Origin: Trichostrongylus colubriformis
Taxonomy: Eukaryota > Nematoda > Chromadorea > Rhabditida > Trichostrongylidae
NCBI GenBank assembly: GCA_963978905.1
Contig: OZ022261.1
Span: 8,805,992 to 8,869,991 of the forward strand
Length of the DNA: 64,000 nt
Direction: 5' to 3'
Shown here: positions 7,559-49,256 of the stretch, one piece after another
Layout of the letters: each line of letters begins with the position of its first letter
How positions within the stretch are numbered: position 1 is the stretch's first letter
Notes under the pieces: generated by a model
What the model was told of the DNA's origin: nothing
Database searches by the model: none
What the model saw: only the letters and a program-made list of their open reading frames with translations
Translations under genes and position numbers: made by a program

Positions 7559-8277
7559 TAGGGTCCGCCAATAAGCGCGCTCGAACTTTAAAATGAAATA
7601 AAGCCAGTTGTGTGAGGGGTATAAATGAAATTTATTTTTTGTTTGAAAGAGTATTCGAAGGCATTATGTATGGAAAATAACCTTTCAAATGGCCACCTCG
7701 GCTTCGCCTGGTGACGCGCATACGAGAAGTCCAATTTTCAATGACTCTGGCGCACAAATCGGGCTGTATTTCATCGATGGCACCCTGTATGTTGACTTTG
7801 AGGTCATCAGTGTTTTGTGGTTGGTTTGCGCAGACCTGCAATTTAAGAAAACCCCACAAGAAATAGTCTAGTCGGGTTAAATCGCACGATATCGGTGGCC
7901 ATTTGATGTTGCCTCCGCGCGAGGTAACCTTTCCTCCGAAGCGCTCGTGCAGAAGATCCATTGTGGTGCGCGCTGTGTGGCTCGTAGCGCCGTCCTGCTG
8001 AAACCACATATCCTCGACATCCATATTGTTCATGCTAGACTCAGCAGAACAACCAACTGCACCGTAAAATTGGTGGAGCGCGCGGAACGTTGCTCGAACC
8101 GATGAATGATTTTCGTAATAAGTTTTAATGAGTCGCACACGTTGCTCGCGGCTGAATTGGTTCATGGTGATTTGTGAAGATACACTGAATAATAACAACT
8201 AGGTTTGACAACTCTACCACAAGCAACGTGGCTGCCATGAGCTGTCAAAGATAGAGCGCGCTTATTGGCGGACCCTG
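7559..8277 (-). mobile_element. Internally deleted mariner-like element (719 bp)
   Basis: The ends are near-perfect terminal inverted repeats: AGGGTCCGCCAATAAGCGCG is present at 7560 and, inverted, up to 8276. A TA dinucleotide flanks both sides (7557-7558 and 8278-8279), the usual target duplication of Tc1/mariner elements. The first TIR base differs between the ends (T versus C). A transposase remnant on the minus strand fills the middle. At 719 bp it is about half of an autonomous element, so it would need a transposase supplied from elsewhere. Confidence 0.9.
7632..8198 (-). pseudogene. Mariner-like transposase with internal deletion
   Basis: The 188-codon frame opens with an N-terminal helix-turn-helix region of the DUF4817-like type (MNQFSREQRVRLIKTYYEN, residues 12-30). 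It then jumps to the C-terminal half of a DDE domain. The WFQQDGATSHTAR block carries the second catalytic Asp, and CDLTRLDYFLWG carries the third. About 130 residues, including the first catalytic Asp, are absent although the frame stays open, so a clean in-frame deletion removed the centre. A protein made from it could still bind the TIRs, which is how deletion derivatives can act as repressors; that role is inference. Confidence 0.85.
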
Positions 8278-27430: not shown

Positions 27431-30400
27431 AACTTACTTGGAAAAATTTCAATTCTCGCCAATGGTCCGTGAACAGGCTGGTTGTTCGCCTTGTTTATAC
27501 AAAACTCATGATTGCGATGGGTTTTGTCATGGAGGTATTTATACAGTTCAACCATTCTTTATTCTAAAATATTTTTCATAACTGTACTTACAGGCACTGC
27601 AATTCGACCCCCAGGACTGGCAAAACGTTCTTTTAATTGGATTAGGAGGTGGAGCTCAGAACAACTTTCTCAGTGTGGTGGATTTCATAATGGTGTTTAA
27701 TTTATATTTCAAGGCTCAAAACGTAAAAGCGATGCCCACATACGTGCAAACTTTATTAGAGGCATGCCCCCCTATGGAGTGCTTAATACAAAGTCTTCAA
27801 TGACTCAAAAAGGATAGGTTCCACTCTCAAAATTTCCACTATCGAATTGCGTGATACTGATGAGCTGCCTTGCGGATGGCAAATATAGATAAAAAAGAAT
27901 CCAAATAAAAGGTACTGAGAGGTGCGTTTCAGAAGGCGATGCATTTTATTTATTTATTATCATGTGTTGTTGCATGTATAACAAACAATGCACCTGAATA
28001 ATTATCACCACTGTGATAATAGAAGATCAGTAGGATCGTCCGAGGTTATCGGGTCTTTCTAGTGCCTATATAATTATGTTGTAACGCTTACTACTGGCCA
28101 CATGTAAAGTTTCACGCGAAAAACTAAATTCCAGCTTGGATACAACTCCTCAAAACATCGTCCCTGGAGGCGAGGCGTGTATCGAAGGCTGGGCTGCGAA
28201 GGCTGTAGAACAAAACGGTGGCGGTCACGTGACCAGTGACACAGTGTGGGCGCAATTCGAAATTTAAGAGAAACTTTGGGCTACGCTCCATCTCGCCGGC
28301 AACTGGTGAAAAATTGTCCGGAGAAATACAAACGAGTTGCTGTCGTTTCAGTCTTTCGATTTTTGATACGAAGGAATTTTTTTGATTCTTTCTGTTTCTG
28401 TTCGGGTAGTGAACCTAGTATTTCTGTTCAAGCACCGAATCTACTAGTAAGTGATTTTCATAGGATAGAAACATGGAATTTGCTCACTACTCCTTCAAGA
28501 AGGGACGGTGGAATGGGATGGCGGATCTCGAGGATGAGCAGAGGCCGTCGTAGCCTCACCTACTTGCACTACCATGTGCTCAAAAACAATCGAGTTTTGA
28601 CGATAGCTTGATAACCGTTTGATTTATAGGTCAATCTCACGAGCATAGAATTGAGTCCAACCATGGTATCTATGGCAAAAGACTGGTTCGGATTGGTGGA
28701 GACGCAAACCAATACTGTATTAGTCGAGGATGGGGTCGAATTTGTACATGCAGCTGCTCAACGTGGTACGTGCACTTCTACCACCGCTTTATGTGGTGAC
28801 TCATTTTGAGTGCCTATTTGAAGGAGACCTAGCGATAATCAGGTTATTCAACCAAACTTCTTGAGTAGTGGGTCATGAGGTAATTATCCAACATGTACCT
28901 TTTCTGCACCGCCGCGATGCTTCACCACGATGCTATACCCACTGGAACCTGTTGCAAAAAGCTTTTCACGATAACTAGTCAATAAGCCTGTCAGCGTAGA
29001 GGATATAAAATGGAGGCGGGGCATCCGACAGGGCTTTTAGAGTGAGGAAGGAGCTCAGACGCGGCTCTCCTTGTAATTCGGCATGACGGTGACCTCAGTG
29101 GCTCGCCGATACTAGACTACAGTAACAGGCGGTAGCGGGAAGAGGGGAGAGGCAAGTCTTTCTGCCCTTCGCGGACCCACGCTAGGAGCGAAGTGATTAT
29201 GGAAAGTAGGAAATGGAAACTATAGATATGGGCTTACACAATGTCGTCGTAGGAGAACAGTTAGTCCTCGCATGCACGTAGTTGCAATATGCTTTATCGA
29301 ACATTTGTCAATTGTAGTAAAATAAGCCTATAATACAGTGAGAATCCAACGGACGAATAAACCATTGAAAACCTTCGAGTCAGTGATGCAGTTTCAAAAG
29401 AACTCAAGTCAGCCACGTCGGACCTCGTTTGATCAGTGGAGCTGAAGGGGTGTGGTTAATGTGTTTAGCTTGAAAATAAGTGTTTCACTGTCAAGGTTTT
29501 TGAAAAAATGCATATGAACGAAAAGCTGGGTTGCTGAAATTTAACACGACATACAGTATTCCCTTTTCAGAAGAAAGGTACAAGGCAATCCTTCTTGATG
29601 CTTCTGGTGACGCCAGCGAAGCGATGGTATGTCCTGCTAAAGTTTTTATGCAACCAAGTGTTATTCAAGACATCGCAAGTGTACTCGATGACGACGGTGG
29701 GTGATGTTCATAAGTACCTCGTATAGATATTCTTAAGTGTGATCCAAATGCTGTTAGTTGCATGTATAGCACAATAAGTTAGGTGTTCCAGTGCCTATGT
29801 CGTGGATCCGAGTTCACGATAACTCGTCTAAACGCATACCTGAGCGGAAGATATAAGTGAGGGGCGGAGCCGGAGATGGGGCTTCAGAGGGAGCCGAGCT
29901 GAGGGTGGCTGCCTCTCGGGTTATCGGCGTAAACGCGACTCCATCGGGTCGTCTGGTAATGCATAATGTAAACGGGAGGTAGATGAGAGAAGATGCGGGT
30001 CGAACCGTTGCGAACAGAAGGAAAAGGAGAAGAAATGGAAACTTAGGAAACACATGTGAATGGTGCCTTCGTAGAGTTGCTGCGATCGTCCATTTTAGCC
30101 TAATAAGTTGAAGATTTAGGGTTGAGAATGAAATGACTTGGAGTAACTCGAGTTAGAATGAGTCACCAAAACCGCTTTGAGACCGTAATGCAGTTTCATA
30201 ACCCTGTGTGTGCGTGGATAAATCTTTGAACAAGTGCAGAGGTTCCACCCTTCTGGGTAGCTAGAGGCCGCTTACACGGAAGGCCCATCAGGTCATGGTG
30301 AGCTTTCTCAAAACGGTTTTTTGCATTTTATAGGGTCACATACATGGAGCAAAAAACCGGTTTCAAATTTGGCTAAATGGTTTTGGGGGGCCTAGAAAAT

Positions 30401-32212
30401 AGTTAATGGTTCGGTCCCCACTGAGGACAAATTTTTGCATTTTTCTAGTTTTTATCCATTTGTGCTCATGTAAGACCATACGTGCAAAACATGTGCAAAA
30501 TCAATTTTTATTCTACAGGGAACCGTTATCTTCACTATTTTTACGTAATAAGCGAATGATTGGTTTGGACCTGCCAACGCTCACAACAGGGGAACTAGGC
30601 GTTTTCCTGCAAAGTACGTGTGATATTCATGCTCAGGGGGCCGAACTACCCTATATGACGAGTTTTCAGCCTAATCGCGATTTGGACCCAAACTCGAAAA
30701 ATTGGGCGACCAATAGTACTACTACTTCCATAGTAAGGAGCACTCAACGAAAGGAGCTCGCTAGCCGATATAAGGAAATATTTGCCATCTTTTGCCTTCG
30801 CATGGTGTTGGTAGGTGCAATTCACTTGGAATGCGATGTTTCTGCACATGCCCCACTGCATTTAATCGAGGCTGTAAGTTGTTCGTCTGTACAAGTGGTG
30901 CAGTGACTGTGTGCCCATGTCCACCCCACTGTCTCGAGTTTGGGTGAAAATCTCAATTTGGATAGTATTCTGTATCTAGGGATAATTGAGTCTCCTGAGC
31001 ACGAATATCGCACTAGTTTCGCAGGAAAACTCCTGGCACGCGTGCTAGGGGCGCCGAAGGGTCCAAACACTTGAACCACCGAAAGCTTGCAAATGAGGTC
31101 ACTTTCGTGCACCAGCGAAGAAAATTGCAGTCATTTTGCATGTGCGCAAATAGTATAGCGCTAGACAAAGAAAATTAAGAAAATGCAAAGGAGAGAACGT
31201 AGAAGGGACTTGAACCACAATCACCCCCACCACCATGCCAATACCAATCTATCCCCCTATCCATTCGACCATCCAACCACTGCAAGCACCCCAGTCTGTG
31301 CATCCCCTATCAGCTTTCTTTGTTTTGTTTAGCAGTTACCATAAGTGATTCTACATTTTTGAACCAGATCGCAGTGGTTTTGGCGTAGGTTTAAAGGCAG
31401 TCTTCTGATATGCATACACTGAATACCGCAGCTGGAAAGCATTGTAGCAAACTGGTCAAAATTGTTTCCTTCTGAGCAACTTTTGTCACTCATTTTCTGG
31501 GCCCCCCAAAACCATTTAGCCGAATTTGAGAGCGGTTTTTTGCTTCATGTATGTGACCCTATAAAATGCAAAAAACCGTTTTGAAAAAGCTCACCATGAC
31601 CTGATGGGCCTTCCTTGTTAGGATGTTGAAATGCCAGGCGCCTCCCTTATTTCATGGGCCCAGCACTGGCTGAAGGGAAGGAACATGTCCCTCGGCATGA
31701 TAACGCTGATCTGGGCTACGAATTTCTTCTGCGTCCACCATACTCGTTTGAGCTGGCCCCACCAGCTACCATTTCTTCAAGCGTTTGGACAGCTTCATTA
31801 GGGAGAAGCGCTTCGAAACAAAACCCAATGCTGAAGCGACTTTCAAGGGATTCTTCTCTCTAGATCTCGACAATTTTGGGCTATCAGAATAAGCAAGCTT
31901 GAATCTTGTTGGCAAACATGTGAGGGATGCTATTGTTCTCGTCCCTGTTGATAAAATGAGACATGCGCATTTGAAGTCAGAGATCGAAAACCGCAAAAAT
32001 TTTAATACTAACCTATTATAATTCAAAATCCGCAGGCATTCGTTCCAAAGCTATCATAAGAAGGCGTAAGTTCGAGCAAATATATTTAAGGTGTGCTCAC
32101 GGTGAATATTCTCAGCGGAAGAGATTTCATAGCAAATGAGGATGAAGTGCTCGCAACATATAAACCACACTTTGCAACGTGTTTTCTGTTGCGGTACAGC
32201 GCTGCACAAAGG
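27431..32212 (+). CDS. SAM-dependent methyltransferase, spermidine-synthase-like (partial)
   Basis: Five exons join in phase: 27431-27534, 27594-27692, 28630-28765, 29571-29696 and 32091-32212. The SAM-binding motif I is VLLIGLGGG at the start of exon 2's core. The acidic residue after strand 2 is in VNLTSIELSP (exon 3). LVEDGVEFV follows, then the motif YKAILLDAS (exon 4). Exon 5 continues the fold with VLTVNILSGRDF and an FATCFLLRY strand. This order matches the polyamine-synthase-like (PABS-type) methyltransferase fold common in nematodes. Polyamine-specific substrate residues are not evident, so the substrate is unknown. The N-terminus (possibly the 24888 exon) and C-terminus are not located. 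The intron from 29697 to 32090 holds an inverted-repeat element. Confidence 0.82.
30279..31614. mobile_element. Long inverted-repeat DNA element (about 1.34 kb)
   Basis: Inverted arms of about 120 bp (30279-30400 and 31491-31614) share AAGGCCCATCAGGTCATGGT, ACGGTTTTTTGCATTTTATA and GGTCACATACAT. The 166-codon ORF inside (30406-30906) has no transposase motif. The right portion (about 31353-31614) recurs as a degenerate partial copy at 37165-37446. It sits within the fourth intron of the methyltransferase gene and is probably non-autonomous; superfamily unknown. Confidence 0.75.
31695..31885 (+). pseudogene. Mariner transposase C-terminal relic
   Basis: Reading across frames on the plus strand gives HDNADLGYEF, then RPPYSFELAP and, in a second frame, YHFF-like and KRFETKPNAEATFKGFF. 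This is the order seen around and after the third catalytic Asp of mariner transposases. Frameshifts and the absence of TIRs mark it as a dead fragment. It lies in the same intron as the inverted-repeat element just before it. Confidence 0.65.
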
Positions 32213-36666: not shown

Positions 36667-39600
36667 CTCCGACTGCGTATAATGAACCATCCGATGAAGT
36701 GATTCCAAATTTTGTCAGCCGCTTTGAAGATGAAGAATCTCGGATGAGACTAGCGGTGTCGGATCTGGACCTCAGACGTCTTGAGTTCTGTCTCGGCAAG
36801 CGAACAAAAGCTGTCGGTATTGTCATTGGAGTCATCGATGTCTGCTCACTAACCACAGCATTCGTTAAGTGCATTCAACTCTTGCAACACTTCGGGTAGG
36901 CCACATTTACATTTAGTACACTTTGTCAGTCTCTTATCACGCGTAACGTCATACCCATAGCGAAGGTACCGATGACTACATTTTGTATGTGCACAAACAG
37001 TTTAACACAGTACCCTGTACACAGTCGAAAAAATGCGAAATGCCCGTCAGAAAGGTGAGCCAAGCCATAAACACCCTCCCGATGTTCAAATGAGACTTCA
37101 CGCCGCTACCCATTCGGCCATTGGACTGCTGGGATTCCTTCGACCTGTACGATTCCGATTTTTGCATACATTGGATCCAGTTCGCATTGGTTTTGATGCA
37201 GATTCAATAGGGTTCTAATATGCATTTACTGAACGCTAAAACTAGGAAGCACTGTAAGAAACAGGTCGAATTGCTTCCAAGCAACTTTTGTCATTTAGTT
37301 TTTGGTTCCTCCCTCTCCGCTCTAACCCCCCTCCCCTCCCAGAAATTCGTTTAGGCAAATTTGGCACCCGTTTTTTGGTTCATCTATGTAATCCTACAAA
37401 TGCAAAAAGCCGTTTCAGAAGAGCTCATCATGCCCTAATGGGCCTTACATATAAGATTAGGCCGCCTTGATGAACCAAAGCGGAACACTGTTCGGCGGTA
37501 AGCGGTAGTGTCCGGTGTGGCGATCTTTATCAACCACAGAAACTTCTTCATAAGCCCATTGAGATATTCTTTTTTCAAAATCAGATCCAAATGAAGCATT
37601 ATTCCGCCTTTGTGAAACTGTAGATCTTCTTTCAGCTTAGTTTGTCAGAGGTACTTGAAGAAGCGAATTTGTTTACATTTTTATCAGTTTTTCTTCCCAA
37701 TCAACAACTATGCCCACAAGCCAAATGCGTCACCTCTATTTAGTAGACCATCGGGGATGTAGCGGAAATGTATGTATTTCAATCCATGTGGTGCGGCAGC
37801 AGTTTATCAAGTCTACTGGTTTTAGCAGTAACGTGTTTACCACCGCTTCGCGAAGCTTATGTATCGATCGCAGCGCGCTTATGTATTGATCGCAGCTGCG
37901 CAAATCTGTGTTGTGTGGCGGTCATACGGAGACGAGCGCTACAAAAGGGGCCGGGCTGTGGGCGTAAGGCCTCGCGAGCCTTTACAGTAAAAGGCCTAAG
38001 TTGACTGACACATAATTCACTTCAGATACACTCCAATAGCAACTTTCGCTTGCTATTCAATCGGTGTTTTGTATACATCGCATCTCATCGCTATTCTCGC
38101 TTGTTGGTATGGCATCACTAGGGAGCTATCGTCGTGGATCGTGCCGAAAATTGTGCTCAAGTGCACCACCGTCATGCTACTGATAGCGATTACCTGCATT
38201 TTGTCATATTTCATTTCAAAGAATCCTTCTTATTTTGGAGGTGTGATAGCACGTGGCTTGAACGTCGATTATCTTGAGCACAAAAGTGAGTTTATATTTT
38301 TCTGCTGAAAGAAGGTATCCATGAGTCAATGATACTCTTCAAAGGTGCAATTGACTTCGGCACAATTGTGCTAGTAACAATCACAGCGGCCGTGGCAATG
38401 GGGCAGATATGGCTATTATTGCTGCTCATTGGATGCTACAGAGACACGCGTAAAAAGGAGCTGAGGCGGCTGCTGGAAGAGGCATTACGAGTCGAGAAAT
38501 CGAAGGAGGAACAGAGGCAAAAGGAAGAAAAAGGTATGGAGAAATACGAAGTTTGTGCTACCTTCATGAGCATGGAAAATGAACAAGCTTCAGAAGGAGC
38601 TACCGTGATAGAGATTCTGTGCATATGCATCATGAATATTTGTAAAGGCACCATTGGGGCTCATGAAGAAAAACGGGATAGGAAAGAGAAGTACTCTGTG
38701 AATGAAAATTGGAGTTCTGAAGAGATGATCTGTGGCGAAACTCGCGATAGAAACGCGATCCTGAAAACCTCGTTTGACCGATTTCGGGTTTTGGTGCCGC
38801 AGCTGGTCGAGTTTTCGTGGAAAGTGGGCAACGTCCACGGCAGCTTTCTGTGCCAGCTTCGGCACTTTTACGATGATACGATGCGGTTCAGTGGGAATGA
38901 CAAGCCGATTTATTGACCGCCGATCGCGGTAACTACATGAGCAGAAAAGCCCAGCATAAGGAGGCGGGGCGCCGCGAGGAGGCTGATGAAGGGTCGCGTT
39001 GGCCGCGACACTCCGCGCGGCGCCGAACATAAAACAATTCACTGATAATCATGTCACAGGATGCCGTCATACATGAAAACTAACTAGAGTAGGATTAAAA
39101 TGCAACCAAATAAATGCAACCAAATTAAATGTGCGTAAGGAACATTATCTATTTGTCACCACAATCAACCGAGAATAATGATGCAGTAAGAGGAATCTAC
39201 AAATACCGATCACCAAGCTGGTATGTCGATCTTCTCGCTTCGCTTCGGTCACGCTCGCATAGCCGACTCGTCGTAGAAGTGGTTGACTCGAGCAGAACTG
39301 AGCTTCCTCTGGCATTCGGGTCGTAACGCGTGACCATCATACGATAGATAAAGCAGAATAACAGCAGAGGTTGAGCGGTGGATAGACAGGACTCGAGAAG
39401 ACCCATTTGGAAGAGTAGTAGTACTGAGTCGATCGAAGGTAGATATCGGGCTGGCGACGGGGAGGACGACATGTGAGGAGAATACTAGCGAAGGTTGAAA
39501 CGTCGACGGTGATCAGGTATTATGGACGCAGATGCTGGTAGGAGTACTGATGGGGGGAGGAAAGTGGAAGAGGCGAGAGGGAGGGGGCAAAGAAATGGAG

Positions 39601-42600
39601 ACGGCGTCGACAGTAGGTGGCTGGAGCAAAATAGGGTCAGAATATACAGAACCGGAATCCATTGGCGATCAGAGATGACGGCGTTTGGATGGTGCTGCAG
39701 ACCTCTGCGAGCATAGGACGGCGTTGTGTCCGCCACGGCAAAAAGAGCAAGTTACATTGCAGTTTCCACCGTGATCAGGACGCAAACATCGTCCGCATAA
39801 GTGCAGTTCGGATGCTCGCATGGCCCTCGAAACCGTGTCAGGATGGCGGTGACAGCGGGCTGTGTGGTGGTTGTCGGGATTTTCACCGACAGGACAGAAT
39901 ACACAATTCGACGTGGGAGCGGTACGCTCCATCAGCACATGGATGTCATCTTGAATTTGGGACACCTTAACAAAGACCGCTTCCAGCCGATTAGAAATGC
40001 GACAAACGGTTTCGGTGAGCGATTCCATGGAAGCACGATGTTCCAGCTCCATCAGTTGAATTTCGCGGTCGATGTCGTCGGCCATACAGATGCGAATGGG
40101 CCCTGCTTAAAGGTCTGACGTCTGAAACAAAAACAGCTACAAGCAAAAGCTATGCCAGGTGGCAATGTTCCTCTTCACAGTCGAGTGGCGCAGTGGTGCA
40201 TCTGCGGTCCGGAGGATGGAAGAGCGGCGCCCGTATCGTCCGTACTTCTGAGGTCACCGAGCTTTCCAAGAGACCGTGCTGCTGTGAGCGCTATGGTGAA
40301 TACCTTCTTCAGCACGAGCCATAACCCTTTGAAAAGGAGCAGTATGGCAATCGGTCCGAGGAAGTAGGTTGGGACCAACACCGAAACTACAGCACCTAAA
40401 ATGAATAGGGTCGACTTCCAATGACCGACTGCTACTACCCATAGTGGTGAAAGGTCCGGTAGACTGAACTCGTCGAACCAGTCGAGTTGGGGCAAGACCT
40501 CCGACGTATTGACCAGCGCGATGCTCGAGAAATCTGCGTGGGGATGGTAGTACAGTATGCCTTGAAGCCTAGCCGACACGTTTTTTCCTCCACATGTGGT
40601 GTAACATTCGTGGTCGACTACTGCATCATTAAATGGCAAGTGCAGAAGTGTGCTCTTATTGTGTGGATTGCATTCCACTGAGAAAACGTATCTGTCGCAT
40701 TTGATTGTTGTCCATGAGCTCGAAAGCGTGAAACAGGATACTGAGGCTTGGCTACCTTCAGTGCAGCTATAGCAACCTTGTAACGGCCCGATGTTCAAAA
40801 CACAGGGTTCGCTTATGCTGAGTGTGGCCTTATCGAGGTCGAGGGTAGAGGAGATCGCCACTGTGAATTCATCTTCGGTAGTCTCTGACTCGACGGAGCC
40901 ATTCACACCCAAGAGCGTGACGCGTGGTTTGTAGATCGGAAGAACGTAGTCAGGGTTCCTGCGTAGTTGTGACAGGTTGTTGTGCGGACAATGACACCTT
41001 GGTCTATTTCCACTCACATCACAGTCACAAAAATGAGCATTCATGCAGGAAGAGAATTGTGATCGTGCCTGTTCCTCGCTTGAGCAGATTACCGGAAAGA
41101 TGAAATCAGGAGGAAGCGCGATTGTCTCTCCTGTAGTCTGCACAAATCGGTGATGATGCGGTTGCATGTTCTGTACAGAAATCACCGTGAAGTTGAAATT
41201 TCCAAATGAAGCCGTACTGTATGGCAATAATTTGAGCCTTCCTGTTCGTTGTTTGTTGTATACGCGGATAGTAACGTCAACTGTGATGATGGGATCCCAC
41301 GCTGTGCACTCGAATATTTCGTACACGTTCGATGATATGGGAATATGGATAACCCGGTAGAATGTGCAGGGCCGTACAGGAATCGCACAAATGCAATTGA
41401 ACCCACTACATTGGACTGAACATGCGGAGTATCCTGGATATATTGAGGAGCTGTTCAGTTCAGGAATTACGCTTTTGGGCTCTAATGATTCGCATGTATT
41501 GCCTGTACATGAGCCCATTCCTCGGCAGCGTGTCACGTAGCGAACTTGCTGTTGCGTCACTCTCGTCCAAAACCATGACAGTTTAGAGCACTCCAATTTT
41601 AGTGGCTGTCTTTGAAGTTTTATGAACCCCACACTCGTATTTGAGTGGCGTAATTGAATGCATAGACTCGACTGAACCCTATTGAACAGTATCTCGTCCC
41701 TGTATCCGTAATTACACTCGTGGTGATCCGTGCAAGTCAATTCTATTGAGTGGCGAATGAATCCGTTTTGACATGAATGAACTCCAGTTATTAGGCACAA
41801 GGCTATAACCGCTGTGATAGGCACAGGTCGAAGAATCGCTGGAGAAAACGAACTTAACGAAAACGGTGCAGGCTGGTTAGTTGGGTTCAAGACAGAAAGC
41901 TCAATGGATTCGCTGTTCGGTGGGGGACTTAACTCTGCTACAGCAGCCCTTCTCTTCTTGACCCGGTCGCGAATGAACCATACTGCCATAACGAGTATAC
42001 TTGCAAAGAAGTACAGAATGATTCCCGAGGTTATGAGTGCTCCTGTGGGCCAACAGTGTGGATTAGCAACTAATCGCTTTGATAGAAATCTTGAGGCATG
42101 ATCACAAAAAGCAGTCGATCGACAAAATCGTGTTTCCGTCCCGTCCCTGTGTCGCATCGTTACCTTTATGGCGGAATCAGTGGGGGACGGAGGCAGCCTG
42201 TATTGCAGCGGTTTCGTCTGTTCGCCAAAACGCTTGCACTTACTGTCAAAGCACAGTTTAAAAGCGGATTGCGGTGGCCAAATAATTACGGAGCTATTTG
42301 AGCAACTAATGGGTTCCTGCAAGGTGAGCGCTGGACATATCATGAGTACCGTCAGTAAGAGTAAGGTCGCCATGTTTTTTTGCCCGTGCGCTTCGCGCTT
42401 TTTCGAGCTCTCTTTCACATGAACACTTTGTGCCTTCGTGGACTGTTCGTTCTCTGGACACTCGCGGAAGCGTTCTCGCTGTTTTTGTGGCAGTGCTTCG
42501 TATGCTTTCGTTTTTGCGGCTCGTGGCAGAATTGGTCGCGTGCGAGGAGGCGCAGTGAGTGCCGTTGATGGCACTGTGCCTTCGGTCTCTCCATCAGCTG

Positions 42601-45600
42601 CTGGCGTTTTTTCCTCACCCCGTGGCAGTGTTGCTCTGATTTCTAATGGATAGAGCTTGTTTATTGGACGTTGGACTGGTATTGATCTGTGTGGAATTTT
42701 TACCTTGGCAGAGCGGATCTTCCCATCTGCGCTTGGTAGCAATTCAACTACTCTACCCATCGGCCAGTGTCCGCGCGGGATCATGTCATGTTCTAGTAGA
42801 ACAATTTCACCTTCTTCCGGGATCGATCTTGTGTTGACTCGCCCTATTTTAAATAGCCTTTTTTGCGTGTCTCTCAACAGTGTCAAATATTCGGTGTTCC
42901 ATATATACCAAAACTTGTCGGCGATTTTCTCAGAAAAACGTAAGGCTTCTCTTGCTTGTGAGACTGTCCGTAACCCGTCCTCGTCATAGGTTGAGTCATC
43001 ATCACTATCGATTTCTCGACATGTTGGAAGCGAAAATTCCAAATTTCCTTGGAGGAAATCTACAGGTCGCAGTGGAATGGCATCGATATCTGATGTGTTC
43101 ACCGCTGTTAAGGGTCTAGTGTTGAGGATGGCTTCTATTCGAGCGATGGCTGTGGTCATTTCTGCAAATGACAATTTTTTCCGACCCACACTTTTTTGGT
43201 ATGCAATTTTAACCGATCCAACCAACCGCTCCCACACGCCTCCCATCCAAGGGGCACCGGGAGGGTTGAAAATCCATGTGATCTTGTTTTCGGCGCAGTA
43301 TGTGTGGAGCGACTTGTCATGCGCAGGGAGGTGCTCAAAATACGAATCGATGACCTTCTTACCGAGCGTGAAGTTGCTGCCACAATCGGTACGAACAAGC
43401 TTGGGTACCCCTCTACGGGCCGTAAATCGAATGAAACTGTTAACAAATGCGGTAGCTGACAGGTTCTCAACAAGTTCAAGATGGATCGCTCGTGTAAGGA
43501 GACATGTGTATAGGCACACGTAGGCTTTCGCATTGTCTTTCATGGAGTATGGTCCGAGGAGATCACAACCTGTGTGTTCGAATGGTCTCGCCCGTCGAAC
43601 GCGGTCCGGAGGCAGCGGGCCCATATCCGGTAGTCTAAACGGAAGGCTTTGTGCTCGGCGGCAAATCGAGCACTGGTTGAGTATACGTCGTGCTTGTCTG
43701 GAGGGGCGCGACAACCAAAAGCGTTGTCGCGCTATCGTGAGTAGATGGTTCTTCCCACAGTGTGTATTGTTTCTATGTAGCTCTGAAAGAATCAGCTTCA
43801 TAAGCTCCGACTGTGCTGGCACGTAAATCGGATTGCGCGTATCGAAGGGTAGATGAGCATTCTCCAATCTGGAAGCACAACGGATAATTCCCTGATCGTC
43901 TCGGAAGATGTTCTTACCCTTATTACGAGTTTGCAACTCCTTCAAGCTGATTCCTTTGTGTTCACACATGAATATCATCTTTTCCGCGAGTTCTATGTCT
44001 TTTGCTGTGATATATGGGTCTATATCGAACTGAGACACGTTACGAAGTTGCAAGTTGCGACCTTTGTTTCTATTCATTCGCTCAGCCAGTCGTTGTATAA
44101 ACTTTGCCACGTATGCTGTAACTCTCGCGGCTTTCGACAGACTACTGAACCTTTGTAGGTCCACTAAATTTTCAGGCACATCTTTTTCTTCAACTTCTGT
44201 TGCTGGAGCGCATACTATTTCCTCCTCATGAGCAGTATCCAAGGGGAGAAAGTCGATGCATTCGATGTTCGTTAGCGCTGTTCTCTCTGAAAGTAGCCAC
44301 TGGGGGCCTCTGATCCAGTCCATTGAGGGGAGCTGAGCAGCGCTCACTCCTCGGGTGCCCGCATCTGCCGGGTTTTTCTCACCAGGTACATGGAAAAGTT
44401 CCACTTTCTGTCCCAGCGATGTAAGTTTATTAATGATGGTCCTTATGCGGTCTCTCTGATTAGTGACAAAGAGGGGAAGCCTTCTTGATGTACGGACCCA
44501 GTTTAGGGCTATAAAACTGTCGCTGACTATATTGATCTGAGTAGGTCCCGAAGGAAGTGCCGAGGCGATAGCTTCGGCTAGGCGTAGTGCCAGCAACATT
44601 GCCAGTAATTCGAGTCTCGGTATGGACAGCAAACGTTTCCGAGGAGCTAGTTTCGTTTTGCCACTCAGCAGTGTAGAAACTGCTTCAGATTCACGTTCCA
44701 TGAATGCACACACGGCCATGGCTTGACTACTGGCATCGGCGAAGATCCACAACTGGGTTGAAGTAGTAGTGTGTGTATAAGGGAACATCATCCTTGGAAC
44801 TTCGATGCGGGCATTGTTCACCTTTTCTGCGGTGGTGGTCCACTCTTGTGCCAATTTCCTTTCAATAGGGGCTATCCACTCCTTTGTAGTTTCGAAAATG
44901 GACCGAAGCAGGCATTTTTGTTTGATCAGAAGAGGTCCGCCAAATCCTATCGGATCATATATCGAATGGAGATTCCTTAGGGCGTCTCGTTTCACGTAAA
45001 CATCACTAGCTTCATTGGTGGAGAAGGAAAAAGTGTCTGTGACCGGATTGTAACTTACTCCAAGTAATTTCATGGGCCCAAAGGGTGCTTTATCGCTTTC
45101 AGCCAACTGCGAATTGACGGCGCTGGAATTGCTAACGAAAGATCTAAGGTTCATCCCGATTGCTGCGAAAAGCTCTTTCGATTCTCGGTACTTCGCAATT
45201 GCCTCTTCTTCAGTGGATGCTGTCATTAAGACGTTATCAACGTAAAGATATCGCATTATCTCGTGAGCCAGTGGAGTACCGACCCTGTGAAGGTGTGCGG
45301 ATATGACCATGTTCAAAATACTCGGCGATGCTGTAGTTCCAAAAGGTACTCGTTTCCAGCGAAACTCCACCACGTTGTCGATCGTAGGTGGTTTACTCGT
45401 ATCACGCAGCCACAAAAATCGGCATAGGTCTCGATGATTCTCCTGTATGCGTACCTGCGTGAATGCTGCTTGAATATCCGCTATCAAAATAATACGTGGC
45501 TGGCGACTAGCTACTAGGATATCGTGTATTTTGTTTACAAACGAAGCTCCTGTATAGAGAACATCGTTCAACGATAAGTGTCCCCGTTGACGAGAGGAAG

Positions 45601-48600
45601 CGTCGAAAACGATACGAAGTGGGGTGGTTTTATTTTCCTTCCACACACCTGAGTGTGGCATGTAGTATGTCCCGACGGAGTCAGGAACCCCGTCCACTAC
45701 TTCTTCGATGACGTCGTCTTTCGAGTATTGGTCCAGGATTTCTGCATACCATTTCTTCTGTTCTGGGAACGCGTTCAAATGTTTAGTCAGCGCTACTAAT
45801 CGGTTCAGAGCTAACTTACGGTTGTCCGTCAACTCCGAGATGTTTTCCTTTAGAGGAAACGGTGCGACGACATGATTCTCCTCGAAACGGATCGACTTTG
45901 CATACTTCGATCGGTAGGCGCATGTACTATCATCTTGAGCTCCTTCTCTCGTAGAGATACCCAAACTTTCCAATTCGAAGAGTAGTTTTATCTTCTCCGA
46001 ATCTGGGGTGCATTCGTTTACGATGGTGTTGCACGACTGAATGATTGGAGAGCTCGAAACCTTGGAATCAATGCTCCCACGACCATATGCTGCTAGTCCA
46101 AACACTGTCTTGGCTACACGCAGACCTGATGGCATTACAATAGGTGGGACATGCTCCAAGACGAGAGAACTGAATAAATCGATTCCGATGAGAATGTGAG
46201 GTTTCTGCATTTCTCCTCGCAACCGACTGTTCGAAAGGCATATGTCGTTTTCCTCCATGAAAAGGAGGTCTTTCTCAGTGAGGAGCACTGATGGAAATCC
46301 CTCAACCAGTGTTGGCTTTGTCCGTAAGGGGATCTGTAGTTCTTTGCCGTGAGCGCTCAGGATTTTCATTTGAACACTATGGGAGACAAAGGTGTCTACC
46401 GTTCCTCCAATACCGGATAAAGTACACTGTTCAGAATGGAGGACCGGGAGTGCTAGGGAGTCTGCCACGTGTTCTTCTACCAAGCTCACATGGGCTCCGG
46501 TATCGAAGAATAGCAGTGCTCGTAGGTATGACCTTGTTCTTTCGCTGAACACTAACGCCTCTACTGTCATGAGCACTATTTGTGTTGAAGTCAACCTCTG
46601 TGCCGTGTTAGTCATGTGGGTATATAGTAACGCGGAAGGTGAAGTGGCACTGAGCCGCTGTTCTGGCATTGAAGAGCTCTCCTGAGGCTGCACCTCGTTT
46701 TGGGTGTAGGAAGGCCATATTGGAGGCAGCGTTGAGCATGACGCGCTTGCATTAGTAAGGTTTTGTGTCACCCTCGGTCGCCGTTGCTTATTGCTACTAG
46801 CCTGTGGCGTTTCTGGTACTGGCGCGTTTCTTGTGCAGAGCGAACCGTCGTGAAGTCTGCCGCAGTGTGGACAATTTGATCGTCTGCATTCGTTACTCTT
46901 GTGTTCGCTCGAGAAACATTTCCAACATAAATTGTTTTCCATAACAACTTGTCTACGAGCGCTGGGTTCCGCGACGGTGCGACATTGGAATGACTTGTGG
47001 TTTGTCTTTTTACAGAATGCACATGGATTTGATGCAGAGACTACCCTCTCTCGTCGCACTGGGTCTTTCATGACCTGTTTTTGGTCCGGTCTGGCAGTAC
47101 TCAGTCGCTGCGAAATGTACCTGTAACGTGCAATAAGTTCCTCGAGATAATCCAAGGTCTGTCCTATGGAACACGATTCCGTATCTCGGTGTTCTTTCAG
47201 AAATTCCTCTACGATGTTCCGCGGTAACTTCTGGAGGATGTTTTCAGTCCACATAGGATCGTGAACTCCTAGGATGTTGTATCCCGTAGAGACCATTTCA
47301 TTCACGAGGGAACGAATTTCGTCAAACACGTGTTCGCAAGAGACAATGTTGCTTTTTGCAGGTTCAAGTTCTGCTAACCTTTTGATGACATGTGCTCTAG
47401 CATTGGTGACATTGCCATACTTCTTTCTCAAAAGATCAATCATCCACTGATAGTTTTGTGGAACTAGCTTTATACCTTTCACTGTCTTAGCTGCCTTCCC
47501 TGTAAGACTATCTTTGAGAAGGACCATTTTTTCGATCGTGTTCAATGTGGTGTTTCTGTGAACCATCGTGTCAAAGATTGCCCAAAATTCTGTGAACTCT
47601 TCAGGTTGACCGTCGAATTTGGGAATCGTGATTCGGGGCGGTTGAACTGAGTTTTGCGCTGGTTGTTCGCAGTTTAGCTTTGGTGTACTGGGCGGCATAA
47701 AATTTTGCTTGCGCGGTTTTGAAAAATGATCGATATTTTCATAGATAGGCTGGTGATCTTCGATGTCTTGTAGGTTTCCTTGGATGCCGCTGAATTTATC
47801 GGCTTCCAGATGTTCATGTGACAAAATGTTTCTGTACATGCTTCTTTCTGGCTTTTTTGGCTCATTTCTACCGTACTGCTCAGCTGTCTGTGCGCGCTGC
47901 AGAACTGGCGATAACGCTCTCGGAAAACGTGCGAATTCGTGGTGAATCTCAGAAAGACGCGTTTTTAGGGCTGATAGGATAGCGTCTGTTTCTGTGAGCA
48001 AGGAATCAAATCCGATGTCCGCTTCTATCTGTTGGAATTCGTCTAAGAATTCCTTCCTCTCACCCTTTTTTGTTGCCATATACTCTTTCTGGATTCCCTC
48101 AATAATCACAAGAACCTCACTCCTAGATGTTTCGAGAAGGGTAATGGCATGCTTTATCGAGTCATATAGTTGTGAGCAGTAGTCCTGTTTTGCGTCTACC
48201 GCTGTAGGATACTGTACCTCGTTCGTGAAAGGACGGAACATATCAATCTGCGCTTTTAGTAGCGCACATGCGCGCTTGAGGCTGCTCTTTTGAAAATACA
48301 GCGCCATGATTAGATTTCTTTGACCCGTTTAGGTGACCGATTTATTCCTTTGCGAGGGAATTGTCTACCTGCAAGGTGAACGCTTTGGTGCTACCAGTTG
48401 TCACTGGTTAGTAACGTGATGGGCTGCAGCCTGATCACAAGCCTGGGTTACTACTCCGGCTTTGGCAGGAAGTAGTAAGCGGGCAACACGAGAAAGTCGT
48501 GCGGTTGATGCACCAAAATTGTGCCAGCTTCGGCACTTTTACGATGATACGATGCGGTTCAGTGGGAATGACAAGCCGATTTATTGACCGCCGATCGCGG

Positions 48601-49256
48601 TAACTACATGAGCAGAAAAGCCCAGCATAAGGAGGCGGGGCGCCGCGAGGAGGCTGATGAAGGGTCGCGTTGGCCGCGACACTTTCTGCATCATTCTCAG
48701 ATACGAGTGATGCAAAGGAGGTGAAAGCTCGTCCTTCACTGCATAAAGGAGGGTCCTATTTCTCGGGTTTCTGACCATTTCATTCTTCTCTCTTTACCGT
48801 TACATTACTGACTATCTCGACCTCTATATCAGGTATCTCTCGATAGGCAAATGTTCGTAACGGCGTTCTTGAGGGCACAGATGGGGCAGTTGGACCAATT
48901 AGAAGATAGGAAAACATGGTCACTGTAAATGAACGCACAGGATTTGAAGGCAGTGTTAGGGAAAAATCGGACGAAATGCGAAAAAAGTGGCGAATATGAC
49001 GGGCGAGATGATCAGTGATACGACGGTGAAGGAAAAACGTAAGTAAATGATCGAAAACTGACACTGGAACCCCTTTCCCACCACTGATTCTCGACGTGGA
49101 CGACCATTCCATCAATAGACGGATGGCCCGGACGACCCTGCCATTGGCATGTATCCAGGTAATCAATGCGCAAAAACAGCGTGGAAACAATACGAAAAAC
49201 TCAAAATGCATCCCATCTTTAACTACAAACGAGCGAAGACATCGAGTGAGAATTAA
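36667..49256 (+). CDS. Four-transmembrane protein, last intron carries the BEL element (partial)
   Basis: Four exons join in phase: 36667-36895, 38026-38285, 38345-38533 and 49159-49256 (stop TAA). The product starts with a polar acidic segment (YNEPSDEVIPNF). Four hydrophobic spans follow: AVGIVIGVIDVCSLTTAFV; the GVLYTSHLIAILACWYGI region; VMLLIAITCILSYFI; and TIVLVTITAAVAMGQIWLLL. After these comes a charged coiled-coil-like tail rich in E, K and R, ending KRAKTSSEN. I do not recognise the family. Upstream exons are missing; a possible one ends at a GTACAT donor near 36559 in matching phase. The last exon is the least certain: the phase fits, but exon 3 also stays open past its GTATGG donor up to the LTR. 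The BEL element inserted antisense into the last intron. Confidence 0.62.
37165..37446 (+). repeat. Partial copy of the 30279-31614 element end
   Basis: This stretch is collinear with about 31353-31614. It shares ATATGCAT-TACTGAA, GCAACTTTTGTCA, ATTTGGC-CCG and TTTTTTGGTTCAT, and the terminal CATGCCCTAATGGGCCTT. Only one end is present, so it is a truncated copy. It sits in the first recognised intron of the four-TM gene. Confidence 0.7.
38849..39010 (-). repeat. 3' LTR of the BEL element (162 bp)
   Basis: On the minus strand it begins TGTCGCGG and ends GGCACA, giving the usual TG...CA ends. It matches 48520-48681 at a constant offset of 9,671 with no difference seen. It contains AATAAA (plus 38909-38914), a plausible polyadenylation signal. 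At 162 bp it is short for an LTR. Confidence 0.95.
39011..39668 (-). other. BEL 3' noncoding region
   Basis: This lies between the small zinc-knuckle ORF and the 3' LTR. Minus-strand ORFs at 39197-39472 and 39485-39736 are open but have low-complexity Ser/Pro/Leu composition and no motifs. The expected polypurine tract before the LTR would end at 39011; only GCGCGGAG is present. Confidence 0.6.
39669..40085 (-). CDS. Small accessory protein after env: coiled coil plus three zinc knuckles
   Basis: This 138-codon ORF lies 89 bp downstream of the gag-pol-env stop. Residues 1-55 are charged and heptad-like, predicting a coiled coil. Three knuckle motifs follow: C61-x2-C64-x8-H73-x4-C78, C97-x2-C100-x4-H105-x3-C109 and C113-x2-C116-x3-H120-x4-C125. 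The 18-residue spacing between the first two knuckles and the CX2CX3HX4C form of the third exactly match the nucleocapsid region of the element's own gag, although the sequence is diverged. It ends with a basic tail (PSKRRHL). A strong splice-acceptor sequence sits 36 nt before its ATG, so it is probably translated from a spliced or trans-spliced mRNA. Its role is unknown; RNA binding or packaging is inference. Confidence 0.8.
   Translation of the reverse strand: MADDIDREIQLMELEHRASMESLTETVCRISNRLEAVFVKVSQIQDDIHVLMERTAPTSNCVFCPVGENPDNHHTARCHRHPDTVSRAMRASELHLCGRCLRPDHGGNCNVTCSFCRGGHNAVLCSQRSAAPSKRRHL
40121..40135 (-). promoter_or_regulatory. Splice-acceptor sequence before the accessory ORF
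   Basis: The minus strand reads CTGTTTTTGTTTCAG immediately upstream of position 40121, a close match to the nematode TTTTCAG acceptor. It lies between the long-ORF stop and the accessory ATG. It could serve cis-splicing of a subgenomic RNA or spliced-leader addition. Confidence 0.65.
40175..48307 (-). CDS. Gag-Pol-Env polyprotein of a BEL/Pao retrotransposon (2,710 aa)
   Basis: A single open frame. Gag comes first, with coiled-coil sequence at 50-150 and a DUF1759-like capsid region at about 225-400. Three zinc knuckles follow (C429, C461 and C479 start them). The aspartic protease has DTGA at 602-605. The reverse transcriptase has Asp944 in LIADIQAAF and YVDN at 1022-1025, where YVDD is the usual motif. 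The Pao-type RNase H has Asp1191, Glu1233, Asp1263 and Asp1315. The integrase has H1511, H1516, C1546 and C1549, then D1582, D1641 and E1693. A DUF5641-like C-terminal domain spans about 1795-1892. The env-like part has a signal-like segment at 1979-1997, a membrane span near 2088-2112 and a second hydrophobic start near 2161-2179. A Cys-rich Phlebovirus-Gc-like ectodomain (CRGMGSC at 2261-2267) and a terminal membrane span (about 2630-2667) complete it. No stop or frameshift separates the regions. Confidence 0.96.
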   Translation of the reverse strand: MALYFQKSSLKRACALLKAQIDMFRPFTNEVQYPTAVDAKQDYCSQLYDSIKHAITLLETSRSEVLVIIEGIQKEYMATKKGERKEFLDEFQQIEADIGFDSLLTETDAILSALKTRLSEIHHEFARFPRALSPVLQRAQTAEQYGRNEPKKPERSMYRNILSHEHLEADKFSGIQGNLQDIEDHQPIYENIDHFSKPRKQNFMPPSTPKLNCEQPAQNSVQPPRITIPKFDGQPEEFTEFWAIFDTMVHRNTTLNTIEKMVLLKDSLTGKAAKTVKGIKLVPQNYQWMIDLLRKKYGNVTNARAHVIKRLAELEPAKSNIVSCEHVFDEIRSLVNEMVSTGYNILGVHDPMWTENILQKLPRNIVEEFLKEHRDTESCSIGQTLDYLEELIARYRYISQRLSTARPDQKQVMKDPVRRERVVSASNPCAFCKKTNHKSFQCRTVAEPSARRQVVMENNLCWKCFSSEHKSNECRRSNCPHCGRLHDGSLCTRNAPVPETPQASSNKQRRPRVTQNLTNASASCSTLPPIWPSYTQNEVQPQESSSMPEQRLSATSPSALLYTHMTNTAQRLTSTQIVLMTVEALVFSERTRSYLRALLFFDTGAHVSLVEEHVADSLALPVLHSEQCTLSGIGGTVDTFVSHSVQMKILSAHGKELQIPLRTKPTLVEGFPSVLLTEKDLLFMEENDICLSNSRLRGEMQKPHILIGIDLFSSLVLEHVPPIVMPSGLRVAKTVFGLAAYGRGSIDSKVSSSPIIQSCNTIVNECTPDSEKIKLLFELESLGISTREGAQDDSTCAYRSKYAKSIRFEENHVVAPFPLKENISELTDNRKLALNRLVALTKHLNAFPEQKKWYAEILDQYSKDDVIEEVVDGVPDSVGTYYMPHSGVWKENKTTPLRIVFDASSRQRGHLSLNDVLYTGASFVNKIHDILVASRQPRIILIADIQAAFTQVRIQENHRDLCRFLWLRDTSKPPTIDNVVEFRWKRVPFGTTASPSILNMVISAHLHRVGTPLAHEIMRYLYVDNVLMTASTEEEAIAKYRESKELFAAIGMNLRSFVSNSSAVNSQLAESDKAPFGPMKLLGVSYNPVTDTFSFSTNEASDVYVKRDALRNLHSIYDPIGFGGPLLIKQKCLLRSIFETTKEWIAPIERKLAQEWTTTAEKVNNARIEVPRMMFPYTHTTTSTQLWIFADASSQAMAVCAFMERESEAVSTLLSGKTKLAPRKRLLSIPRLELLAMLLALRLAEAIASALPSGPTQINIVSDSFIALNWVRTSRRLPLFVTNQRDRIRTIINKLTSLGQKVELFHVPGEKNPADAGTRGVSAAQLPSMDWIRGPQWLLSERTALTNIECIDFLPLDTAHEEEIVCAPATEVEEKDVPENLVDLQRFSSLSKAARVTAYVAKFIQRLAERMNRNKGRNLQLRNVSQFDIDPYITAKDIELAEKMIFMCEHKGISLKELQTRNKGKNIFRDDQGIIRCASRLENAHLPFDTRNPIYVPAQSELMKLILSELHRNNTHCGKNHLLTIARQRFWLSRPSRQARRILNQCSICRRAQSLPFRLPDMGPLPPDRVRRARPFEHTGCDLLGPYSMKDNAKAYVCLYTCLLTRAIHLELVENLSATAFVNSFIRFTARRGVPKLVRTDCGSNFTLGKKVIDSYFEHLPAHDKSLHTYCAENKITWIFNPPGAPWMGGVWERLVGSVKIAYQKSVGRKKLSFAEMTTAIARIEAILNTRPLTAVNTSDIDAIPLRPVDFLQGNLEFSLPTCREIDSDDDSTYDEDGLRTVSQAREALRFSEKIADKFWYIWNTEYLTLLRDTQKRLFKIGRVNTRSIPEEGEIVLLEHDMIPRGHWPMGRVVELLPSADGKIRSAKVKIPHRSIPVQRPINKLYPLEIRATLPRGEEKTPAADGETEGTVPSTALTAPPRTRPILPRAAKTKAYEALPQKQRERFRECPENEQSTKAQSVHVKESSKKREAHGQKNMATLLLLTVLMICPALTLQEPISCSNSSVIIWPPQSAFKLCFDSKCKRFGEQTKPLQYRLPPSPTDSAIKVTMRHRDGTETRFCRSTAFCDHASRFLSKRLVANPHCWPTGALITSGIILYFFASILVMAVWFIRDRVKKRRAAVAELSPPPNSESIELSVLNPTNQPAPFSLSSFSPAILRPVPITAVIALCLITGVHSCQNGFIRHSIELTCTDHHECNYGYRDEILFNRVQSSLCIQLRHSNTSVGFIKLQRQPLKLECSKLSWFWTRVTQQQVRYVTRCRGMGSCTGNTCESLEPKSVIPELNSSSIYPGYSACSVQCSGFNCICAIPVRPCTFYRVIHIPISSNVYEIFECTAWDPIITVDVTIRVYNKQRTGRLKLLPYSTASFGNFNFTVISVQNMQPHHHRFVQTTGETIALPPDFIFPVICSSEEQARSQFSSCMNAHFCDCDVSGNRPRCHCPHNNLSQLRRNPDYVLPIYKPRVTLLGVNGSVESETTEDEFTVAISSTLDLDKATLSISEPCVLNIGPLQGCYSCTEGSQASVSCFTLSSSWTTIKCDRYVFSVECNPHNKSTLLHLPFNDAVVDHECYTTCGGKNVSARLQGILYYHPHADFSSIALVNTSEVLPQLDWFDEFSLPDLSPLWVVAVGHWKSTLFILGAVVSVLVPTYFLGPIAILLLFKGLWLVLKKVFTIALTAARSLGKLGDLRSTDDTGAALPSSGPQMHHCATRL
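48501..48515 (-). promoter_or_regulatory. Primer-binding site of the BEL element
   Basis: The minus strand reads TGGTGCATCAACCGC four bases inside the 5' LTR. TGGTGCATC is complementary to a tRNA 3' end of the form GATGCACCA. That fits a tRNA whose acceptor stem starts GCATC, such as a nematode tRNA-Gly; the identity is inferred. Confidence 0.72.
48520..48681 (-). repeat. 5' LTR of the BEL element (162 bp)
   Basis: Identical by eye to the LTR at 38849-39010, with TG...CA ends on the minus strand and AATAAA at plus 48580-48585. No obvious TATA box; the upstream part is GC-rich. Flanked on the outside by the CTTTC duplication (48682-48686). Confidence 0.95.
48687..48780 (+). repeat. Dispersed-repeat sequence at the BEL insertion site
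   Basis: This flank (GATGCAAAGGAGGTGAAAGC and then GGGTCCTATTTCTCGGG) resembles about 49958-50040 (GATGCGAAAGCACGTCC and then GGGGTCCTATTTCTCAGG). The retrotransposon therefore landed in or next to one copy of a dispersed non-coding repeat within the intron. Confidence 0.55.

Follow-up and report, generated by a model that had tools for sequence, protein, structure and literature searches.

The stretch of DNA analysed here, hereafter the window, comprises 64,000 nucleotides of the nematode Trichostrongylus colubriformis (contig OZ022261.1 of assembly GCA_963978905.1, positions 8,805,992–8,869,991) and holds on its minus strand a retrotransposon of the BEL/Pao type, in which an open reading frame (ORF) of 138 codons (P0001, 39669–40085, minus strand) follows the single gag-pol-env frame. 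This ORF, defined by its listed translation, its homologues and the selection acting on it, occurs in the same position and orientation and with the same protein in at least 12 diverged families. In the reading that we favour, to which we attach about an even chance, it is a fourth gene under selection in a BEL/Pao lineage with a phlebovirus-type env, and its product, homologous to the gag nucleocapsid (NC), is likely to be a nuclear RNA-binding regulator made from an mRNA of its own. Complex vertebrate retroviruses offer the best-known examples of regulatory accessory genes that are expressed from separate mRNAs. A preliminary description of this DNA, made from its letters, had pointed to an independent 138-codon ORF behind gag-pol-env, which proved to be real and wider than had been claimed; the model put forward there, a spliced duplicate of the element's own NC, was partly right.

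A search of the organism's own genome (331 Mb in 52 contigs) returned at least 124 homologues of the accessory protein at E ≤ 0.001 (150 of 243 candidates being scored); six genomic copies are identical in protein to the ORF of the window, one is 96% identical and some are broken by stops. A second query, taken from another accessory family, gave 130 matches, mostly in the same places when compared by eye. An RT/A17 query, covering the reverse transcriptase (RT), gave 105 matches, of which 104 were used, the other row being a second piece of another locus, and 48 of these 104 loci have, among the matches listed, an ORF match 2–7 kb downstream on the same strand (median 4496 nt). At control positions of the same loci, one match was found upstream on the same strand and none upstream or downstream on the opposite strand. 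Looser limits, applied to 88 of the 124 matches, gave 49 loci with the ORF, and the remaining 36 matches left the figure of 48 of 104 unchanged.

Among the loci with an RT at least 47% identical and a frame of at least 2500 aa, the ORF, which it had been proposed to seek between env and the 3' long terminal repeat (LTR), is present in 20 of 31 and free of stops in all 20; with shorter frames it is present in 28 of 58 (26 stop-free), and at RT identities of 42% or less in none of 15. The 3' stretches of the first 60 of the 104 loci were read, and the ORF was present in 39, which form 12 families at 75% identity. Outside the own genome, a profile search gave 36 proteins among the matches listed, with named sources in six strongylid genera (Nippostrongylus, Ostertagia, Haemonchus, Trichostrongylus, Ancylostoma and Heligmosomoides); the protein of locus L039 is 96% identical to a T. 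colubriformis protein and that of L028 95% identical to one of O. ostertagi. The accessory profile found no confirmed relative in collections of viral contigs and of genome contigs.

Purifying selection acts on the accessory protein. Comparisons within families, linked by minimum spanning trees with saturated comparisons excluded and the edges summed by hand, gave a pooled pN/pS of 0.15 (96 synonymous changes in 1483 sites, 48 nonsynonymous ones in 4886 sites), the excess being evident in pairs such as L032–L051 (17 synonymous versus one nonsynonymous) and L046–L057 (25 versus six). When a saturated family was included, the ratio was 0.22 for the accessory gene versus 0.36 for the env tail, measured in nearly, but not exactly, the same copies. 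The absence or decay of the ORF in related intact elements and the lack of purifying selection, which had been named beforehand as grounds for abandoning the gene, are not what was observed. Since homologues exist, a chance ORF is excluded, and we regard a non-functional frame or a passenger gene fragment, to which the stop-broken genomic copies might point, as next to negligible: it is contradicted by the selection test, by the stop-free state of the ORF in all 20 gene-bearing elements with frames of at least 2500 aa, by the relatives in other strongylids and by the recurrence of the gene in the corresponding position of 48 RT loci.

The protein combines an N-terminal helix, three zinc knuckles and a basic tail. 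The three knuckles of the CCHC type, as had been recognized from the letters of the DNA, are formed by C61-C64-H73-C78 (CX2CX8HX4C; 39852–39905, minus), C97-C100-H105-C109 (CX2CX4HX3C; 39759–39797, minus) and C113-C116-H120-C125 (CX2CX3HX4C; 39711–39749, minus), and ten of the 12 zinc ligands are invariant across 16 aligned accessory proteins. Residues 2–55 (39921–40082, minus) form a single helix in the AlphaFold model (mean pLDDT 88, pTM 0.53), with a hydrophobic period of 3.58 when pooled over the 16 proteins, a strength reached by none of 500 shuffles; the helical part of the N-terminal coiled coil proposed earlier is thus upheld by the model and its period, and the coiled coil itself is a prediction. 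The C-terminal tail (39672–39686, minus) is predicted from its lysine and arginine content to be a nuclear localization signal (NLS), the last eight residues including at least three K/R in 15 of the 16 proteins. A Pfam search of 34 members matched no family in more than two of them, the remainder being scattered single weak matches; a sequence search of the Protein Data Bank gave no match for the accessory protein at E ≤ 0.001, and a Foldseek search gave no fold match at E ≤ 0.001 and nothing usable. No Pfam entry was found for this protein family in the present analysis.

By sequence comparison the accessory protein is homologous to gag nucleocapsid. The element's own NC (46835–47023, minus; identified by motif reading and BLASTP) has the pattern CX2CX4HX4C, 18 residues, CX2CX4HX4C, CX2CX3HX4C, and the accessory protein shares with it, as had been noticed, the 18-residue spacer between knuckles 1 and 2 and the form of knuckle 3; its knuckle 1 has four extra residues and its knuckle 2 one fewer. 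BLASTP of the accessory ORF against the own gag gave E = 2e-7 at 28% identity, and genome matches of the accessory query also fall inside long gag frames, while the gene itself is a separate frame behind env, outside any Gag polyprotein. The first knuckle reads CX2CX8HX4C in all 12 families versus CX2CX4HX4C in the gag pieces compared, so that on these alignments the four-residue insertion, absent from gag NC, marks the accessory group. The homology to NC, the purifying selection and the phylogenetic retention of the gene with env-bearing elements would also suit a second RNA chaperone, acting in particles together with Gag in reverse transcription or packaging and with no nuclear role. We consider such a chaperone rather improbable, since a regulator is the better fit for the basic tail and for a promoter or acceptor of the gene's own, and since the standard NC spacing of knuckle 1 is gone throughout the 12 families.

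A tree of NC sequences was computed from 24 accessory proteins, the own gag NC of the window element and NC pieces from 18 further elements (the gag pieces of L078 and L084 were dropped as they contain no NC pattern). The accessory proteins cluster together in it, separately from the gag NCs, with moderate support (81/78; 82% of 200 bootstrap trees), and none adjoins the gag of its own element. A single old gain of the accessory gene would be the simplest reading of this topology. This separation of the accessory proteins from the gags of their elements, which holds for many elements and is moderately supported, gives no support to a recent duplication of the own gag NC; of the duplicated and diverged NC domain suggested earlier, the NC-like nature (at the E value given above) and the selection stand, and the recent derivation from the own gag does not. 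A Gag-related origin, together with a separate start and the existence of elements without the gene, likewise recalls Ty1 p22, a Gag-related self-regulator whose start is separate from gag-pol, as far as the parts of the literature consulted describe it; by analogy, the accessory protein might compete with Gag for RNA or particles and thereby limit copy number. The likeness is one of description, the gene here being separate, diverged and placed behind env. Such self-restriction is, in our view, quite improbable: p22 has the very sequence of a portion of Gag, while the NC part here has diverged from the gag of its element, the basic NLS-like tail is present, and the accessory protein has no capsid domain, which p22 reportedly uses.

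The route by which the gene is expressed was approached through signals upstream of its ATG, using TATA and acceptor weight matrices written by hand and comparing one copy from each of the 12 families with windows of the same loci. TATA boxes are enriched upstream of the ATG over the 12 families (Fisher p = 2.2e-6, wider window). In a window from −45 to −25, five of the 12 families have a box 32–38 nt before the ATG versus 0.11 expected; the wider test is the fairer one because the narrow window was chosen after its result had been seen. The five (L018, L032, L038, L039 and L053) carry TATATAAG, CATAAAAG or TATAAAAG, the distance in L039 being counted from the second Met, at which the T. colubriformis relative starts. 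An initiator-like TCA, noticed post hoc, lies 27–33 nt from the TATA box in four of the five, a similar box occurs in the 3' LTR of L018, and in five other families a similar box is found 1.0–1.2 kb beyond the ATG, probably inside the LTR. Common descent may explain the box in the five TATA families. In a held-out check of 20 further loci, L096, L099 and L107, which are copies from the same families, retain the box, L103 has an altered one, and L093, L100 and L105 have none; the others were too truncated or disrupted to be assessed.

The family of the window has instead a strong acceptor-like sequence, CTGTTTTTGTTTCAG (40121–40135, minus), 36 nt before the ATG, which ends at 40121 and is, in agreement with the earlier remark, the best-scoring acceptor of its 4-kb stretch; it may receive a splice or a spliced leader, or mark a start without a TATA box. 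Over the 12 families, acceptors upstream of the ATG reach p = 0.052 (Fisher), and the window's family is the only strong case. With TATA boxes in some families and an acceptor in that of the window, a separate mRNA is likely on these signals. The proposal of a separate mRNA made by splicing therefore keeps its first half, a separate mRNA being the most likely route, and loses splicing as the general route, given the acceptor result and the TATA boxes in five of 12 families. That mRNA would likely arise from an internal promoter in part of the families and, in the remainder, by splicing or from a start that lacks a TATA box. Read-through from env was rejected, as the ATG lies 92–686 nt beyond the env frame and in all three relative frames among the 12 families.

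Further upstream arrangements were seen in single loci. In L106 (C1:30808403–30809248), with 55% identity to the protein of the window, TATAAATT and TTTCTTTCTTCAG lie ahead of the coding part, and as there is no ATG at the usual place, the TTCAG may function either as acceptor or as initiator. L028 and L052 lack a TATA box and show TCATTT in a pyrimidine-rich stretch about 15–20 nt before the ATG, and possibly use initiator-type starts.

The TATA boxes suggest that the gene has, in the families that carry them, its own internal promoter in the manner of foamy viruses, and this raises a further explanation, that of an early transactivator, transcribed first from the internal promoter, which binds LTR DNA and activates gag-pol-env. 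The boxes at −32 to −38 in five of 12 families and the basic tail fit this explanation, and the missing box in the window's family does not; moreover, NC-type CCHC knuckles are known mainly as binders of single-stranded RNA or DNA, which also speaks against it. We judge it unlikely. According to the passages available on foamy viruses, their tas and bet genes lie, like the present gene, behind env and have an internal promoter, to which the TATA boxes seen here in several families would correspond (PMC3798896). The differences are that the foamy promoter lies inside env, that Tas is a DNA-binding transactivator and that seven of the 12 families here have no TATA box (PMC3798896). On these partial descriptions, and not by sequence, the foamy virus internal promoter is the nearest analogue in promoter design.

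A regulator that binds RNA, as favoured here, is what the NC-type knuckles, the pairing helix, the basic tail and the gag-independent start together point to. Transcription in the five TATA families would begin from the internal promoter, whose box lies 32–38 nt upstream of the ATG, and yield an mRNA with almost no leader; in the window's family, where a TATA box is lacking, the TTTTTGTTTCAG site would serve as acceptor for a cis splice or for a spliced leader. The modelled N-terminal helix would let the protein pair, and the basic tail would act as a nuclear localization signal. By analogy with CERV of Cer1, the protein would bind the element's RNA inside the nucleus and help to export it; the second choice of function would be a control over the LTR like that exerted by foamy Tas. 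Nuclear entry, RNA binding and export are all inferred by analogy.

CERV, encoded by the Ty3/Gypsy-type element Cer1 of Caenorhabditis elegans, is described in the available passages as a nuclear protein with an NLS, a leucine zipper and a Cys-rich region that is needed for export of the genomic RNA (PMC10309623). Like the accessory protein, it belongs to a nematode LTR element, is encoded partly behind pol and has a Cys-rich region, and its separate mRNA, its NLS of the K-(K/R)-x-(K/R) type and its helical pairing motif correspond to features that are predicted here (PMC10309623). It differs in its 517 aa, in a five-exon mRNA that shares exons with gag and in belonging to another retroelement family, and the passages describe no NC-type array of three knuckles in it (PMC10309623). 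CERV is hence the nearest analogue by behaviour, as judged from partial description and not from sequence, and a precedent for accessory genes in nematodes, yet in another retroelement family. Strongylid belpaoviruses might, more broadly, be complex retroviruses that arose independently of foamy viruses, with a swappable nuclear regulatory cassette of NC descent behind env, TATA-driven in several families; this wider proposal is tentative, and we place it somewhat below even. The analysis yields specific predicted internal promoters and a protein family without a Pfam entry found here.

Several observations weigh against the regulator favoured here. Some long-frame elements lack the gene (11 of the 31 with RT at least 47% identical and a frame of at least 2500 aa; in the six of these that were read the accessory profile found no ORF), so an element does not strictly require it in cis. 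Some young pairs have no synonymous excess, such as L018–L025 with 0 versus two changes, a number too small to be informative. Two Nippostrongylus copies among the 16 aligned proteins have lost three of 24 ligand states, C125 in both and C109 in one. The tree, built on few columns, places one distant gag piece (that of L088, with a very long branch) on the accessory side and does not pick out a gag donor. The TATA box is missing in seven of the 12 families, that of the window included, and in the more independent further families L093, L100 and L105, and transcription directed by a box at −32 to −38 would give an mRNA whose 5' leader is just a few nucleotides long.

The elements without the gene also bear on how it spreads. 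L018, with the ORF, and L023, without it, are 96.3% identical through env and up to about 47 nt beyond the frame end; past this break L018 has about 600 nt holding the ORF and L023 about 50 nt, followed by 3' LTRs that are 82% identical. L053, with the ORF, and L031, without it, are similarly 96.2% identical, with the break about 20 nt past env, and the 3' end of L031 is 92.6% like that of L035 over 857 nt. As gene-bearing and gene-less elements can share 96% of env, the gene behaves as an exchangeable 3' module, and such pairs constitute a natural experiment on the gain, spread and loss of accessory genes. Env sequences 94–96% identical yet joined to different 3' ends and LTRs were observed in L018 versus L023, L053 versus L031 and L058, and L031 versus L035. 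From near-identical env and differing 3' ends, the lineages have probably exchanged 3' ends. Bdelloid rotifer LTR elements similarly have additional ORF3s beyond gag and pol that were gained and exchanged among families, and these are DEDDy, GDSL, env-like or other, none being NC-related in the passages available (PMC5408684).

The host element is a young BEL/Pao element with env and identical LTRs. Its 162-nt LTRs (3', 38849–39010; 5', 48520–48681; both minus), found by repeat comparison, are both flanked by the target duplication GAAAG, which follows the former and precedes the latter. The ORF call gives one frame of 2710 aa (40175–48307, minus), and Pfam searches on pieces of it found gag (DUF1759 and NC), protease (matches below the Pfam cut-off), RT, A17, integrase, DUF5641 and a phlebovirus-type env, the BEL/Pao gag and pol domains DUF1759, RT, A17, integrase and DUF5641 lying in this order. 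The RT and Pao peptidase A17 matches, with the RT motif YVDN, span 44516–45538 (minus), and the Phlebovirus_G2-type domain of env lies at 40868–41773 (minus; E = 1.7e-62). As gag, pol and env form one continuous frame, Env would come from polyprotein cleavage or a subgenomic RNA.

The ICTV profile of the Belpaoviridae gives LTRs of 0.2–1.2 kb, longer than those of the window element, and lists only gag, pol and env as genes; the selected fourth gene extends this description, and the element stays within the family. Atlas virus, an endogenous belpaovirus of Ancylostoma ceylanicum (9204 nt, 271-nt LTRs, 2828-aa frame), resembles it, in the passages available, in the single gag-pol-env frame, the phlebovirus-type env, the YVDN motif and the identical LTRs of a young element (PMC9094657). 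It differs in that, by our arithmetic on that partial account, about 175 nt are left beyond the LTRs and the frame, and there is therefore no room for a fourth gene (PMC9094657). No accessory gene of a BEL/Pao element is described in the literature searched; an earlier mention is possible in Bowen and McDonald (1999), which is cited for overlapping ORFs of C. elegans elements (PMC9094657).

Some 660 nt separate the accessory ORF of the window element from its 3' LTR, and they contain a short tandem repeat with a 14-nt unit (39098–39131); in L018 the accessory ORF stops about 45 nt before the LTR. Elsewhere in the window, a 130-nt inverted repeat (30271–30400 and 31492–31621, 94% complementary) encloses an ORF of 166 aa (30406–30906), which gave no Pfam match at E ≤ 0.01, and the repeat and its ORF are possibly a small DNA transposon. 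An ORF of 188 aa (7632–8198, minus) has a match to the DUF4817 helix-turn-helix and is a possible transposase remnant.
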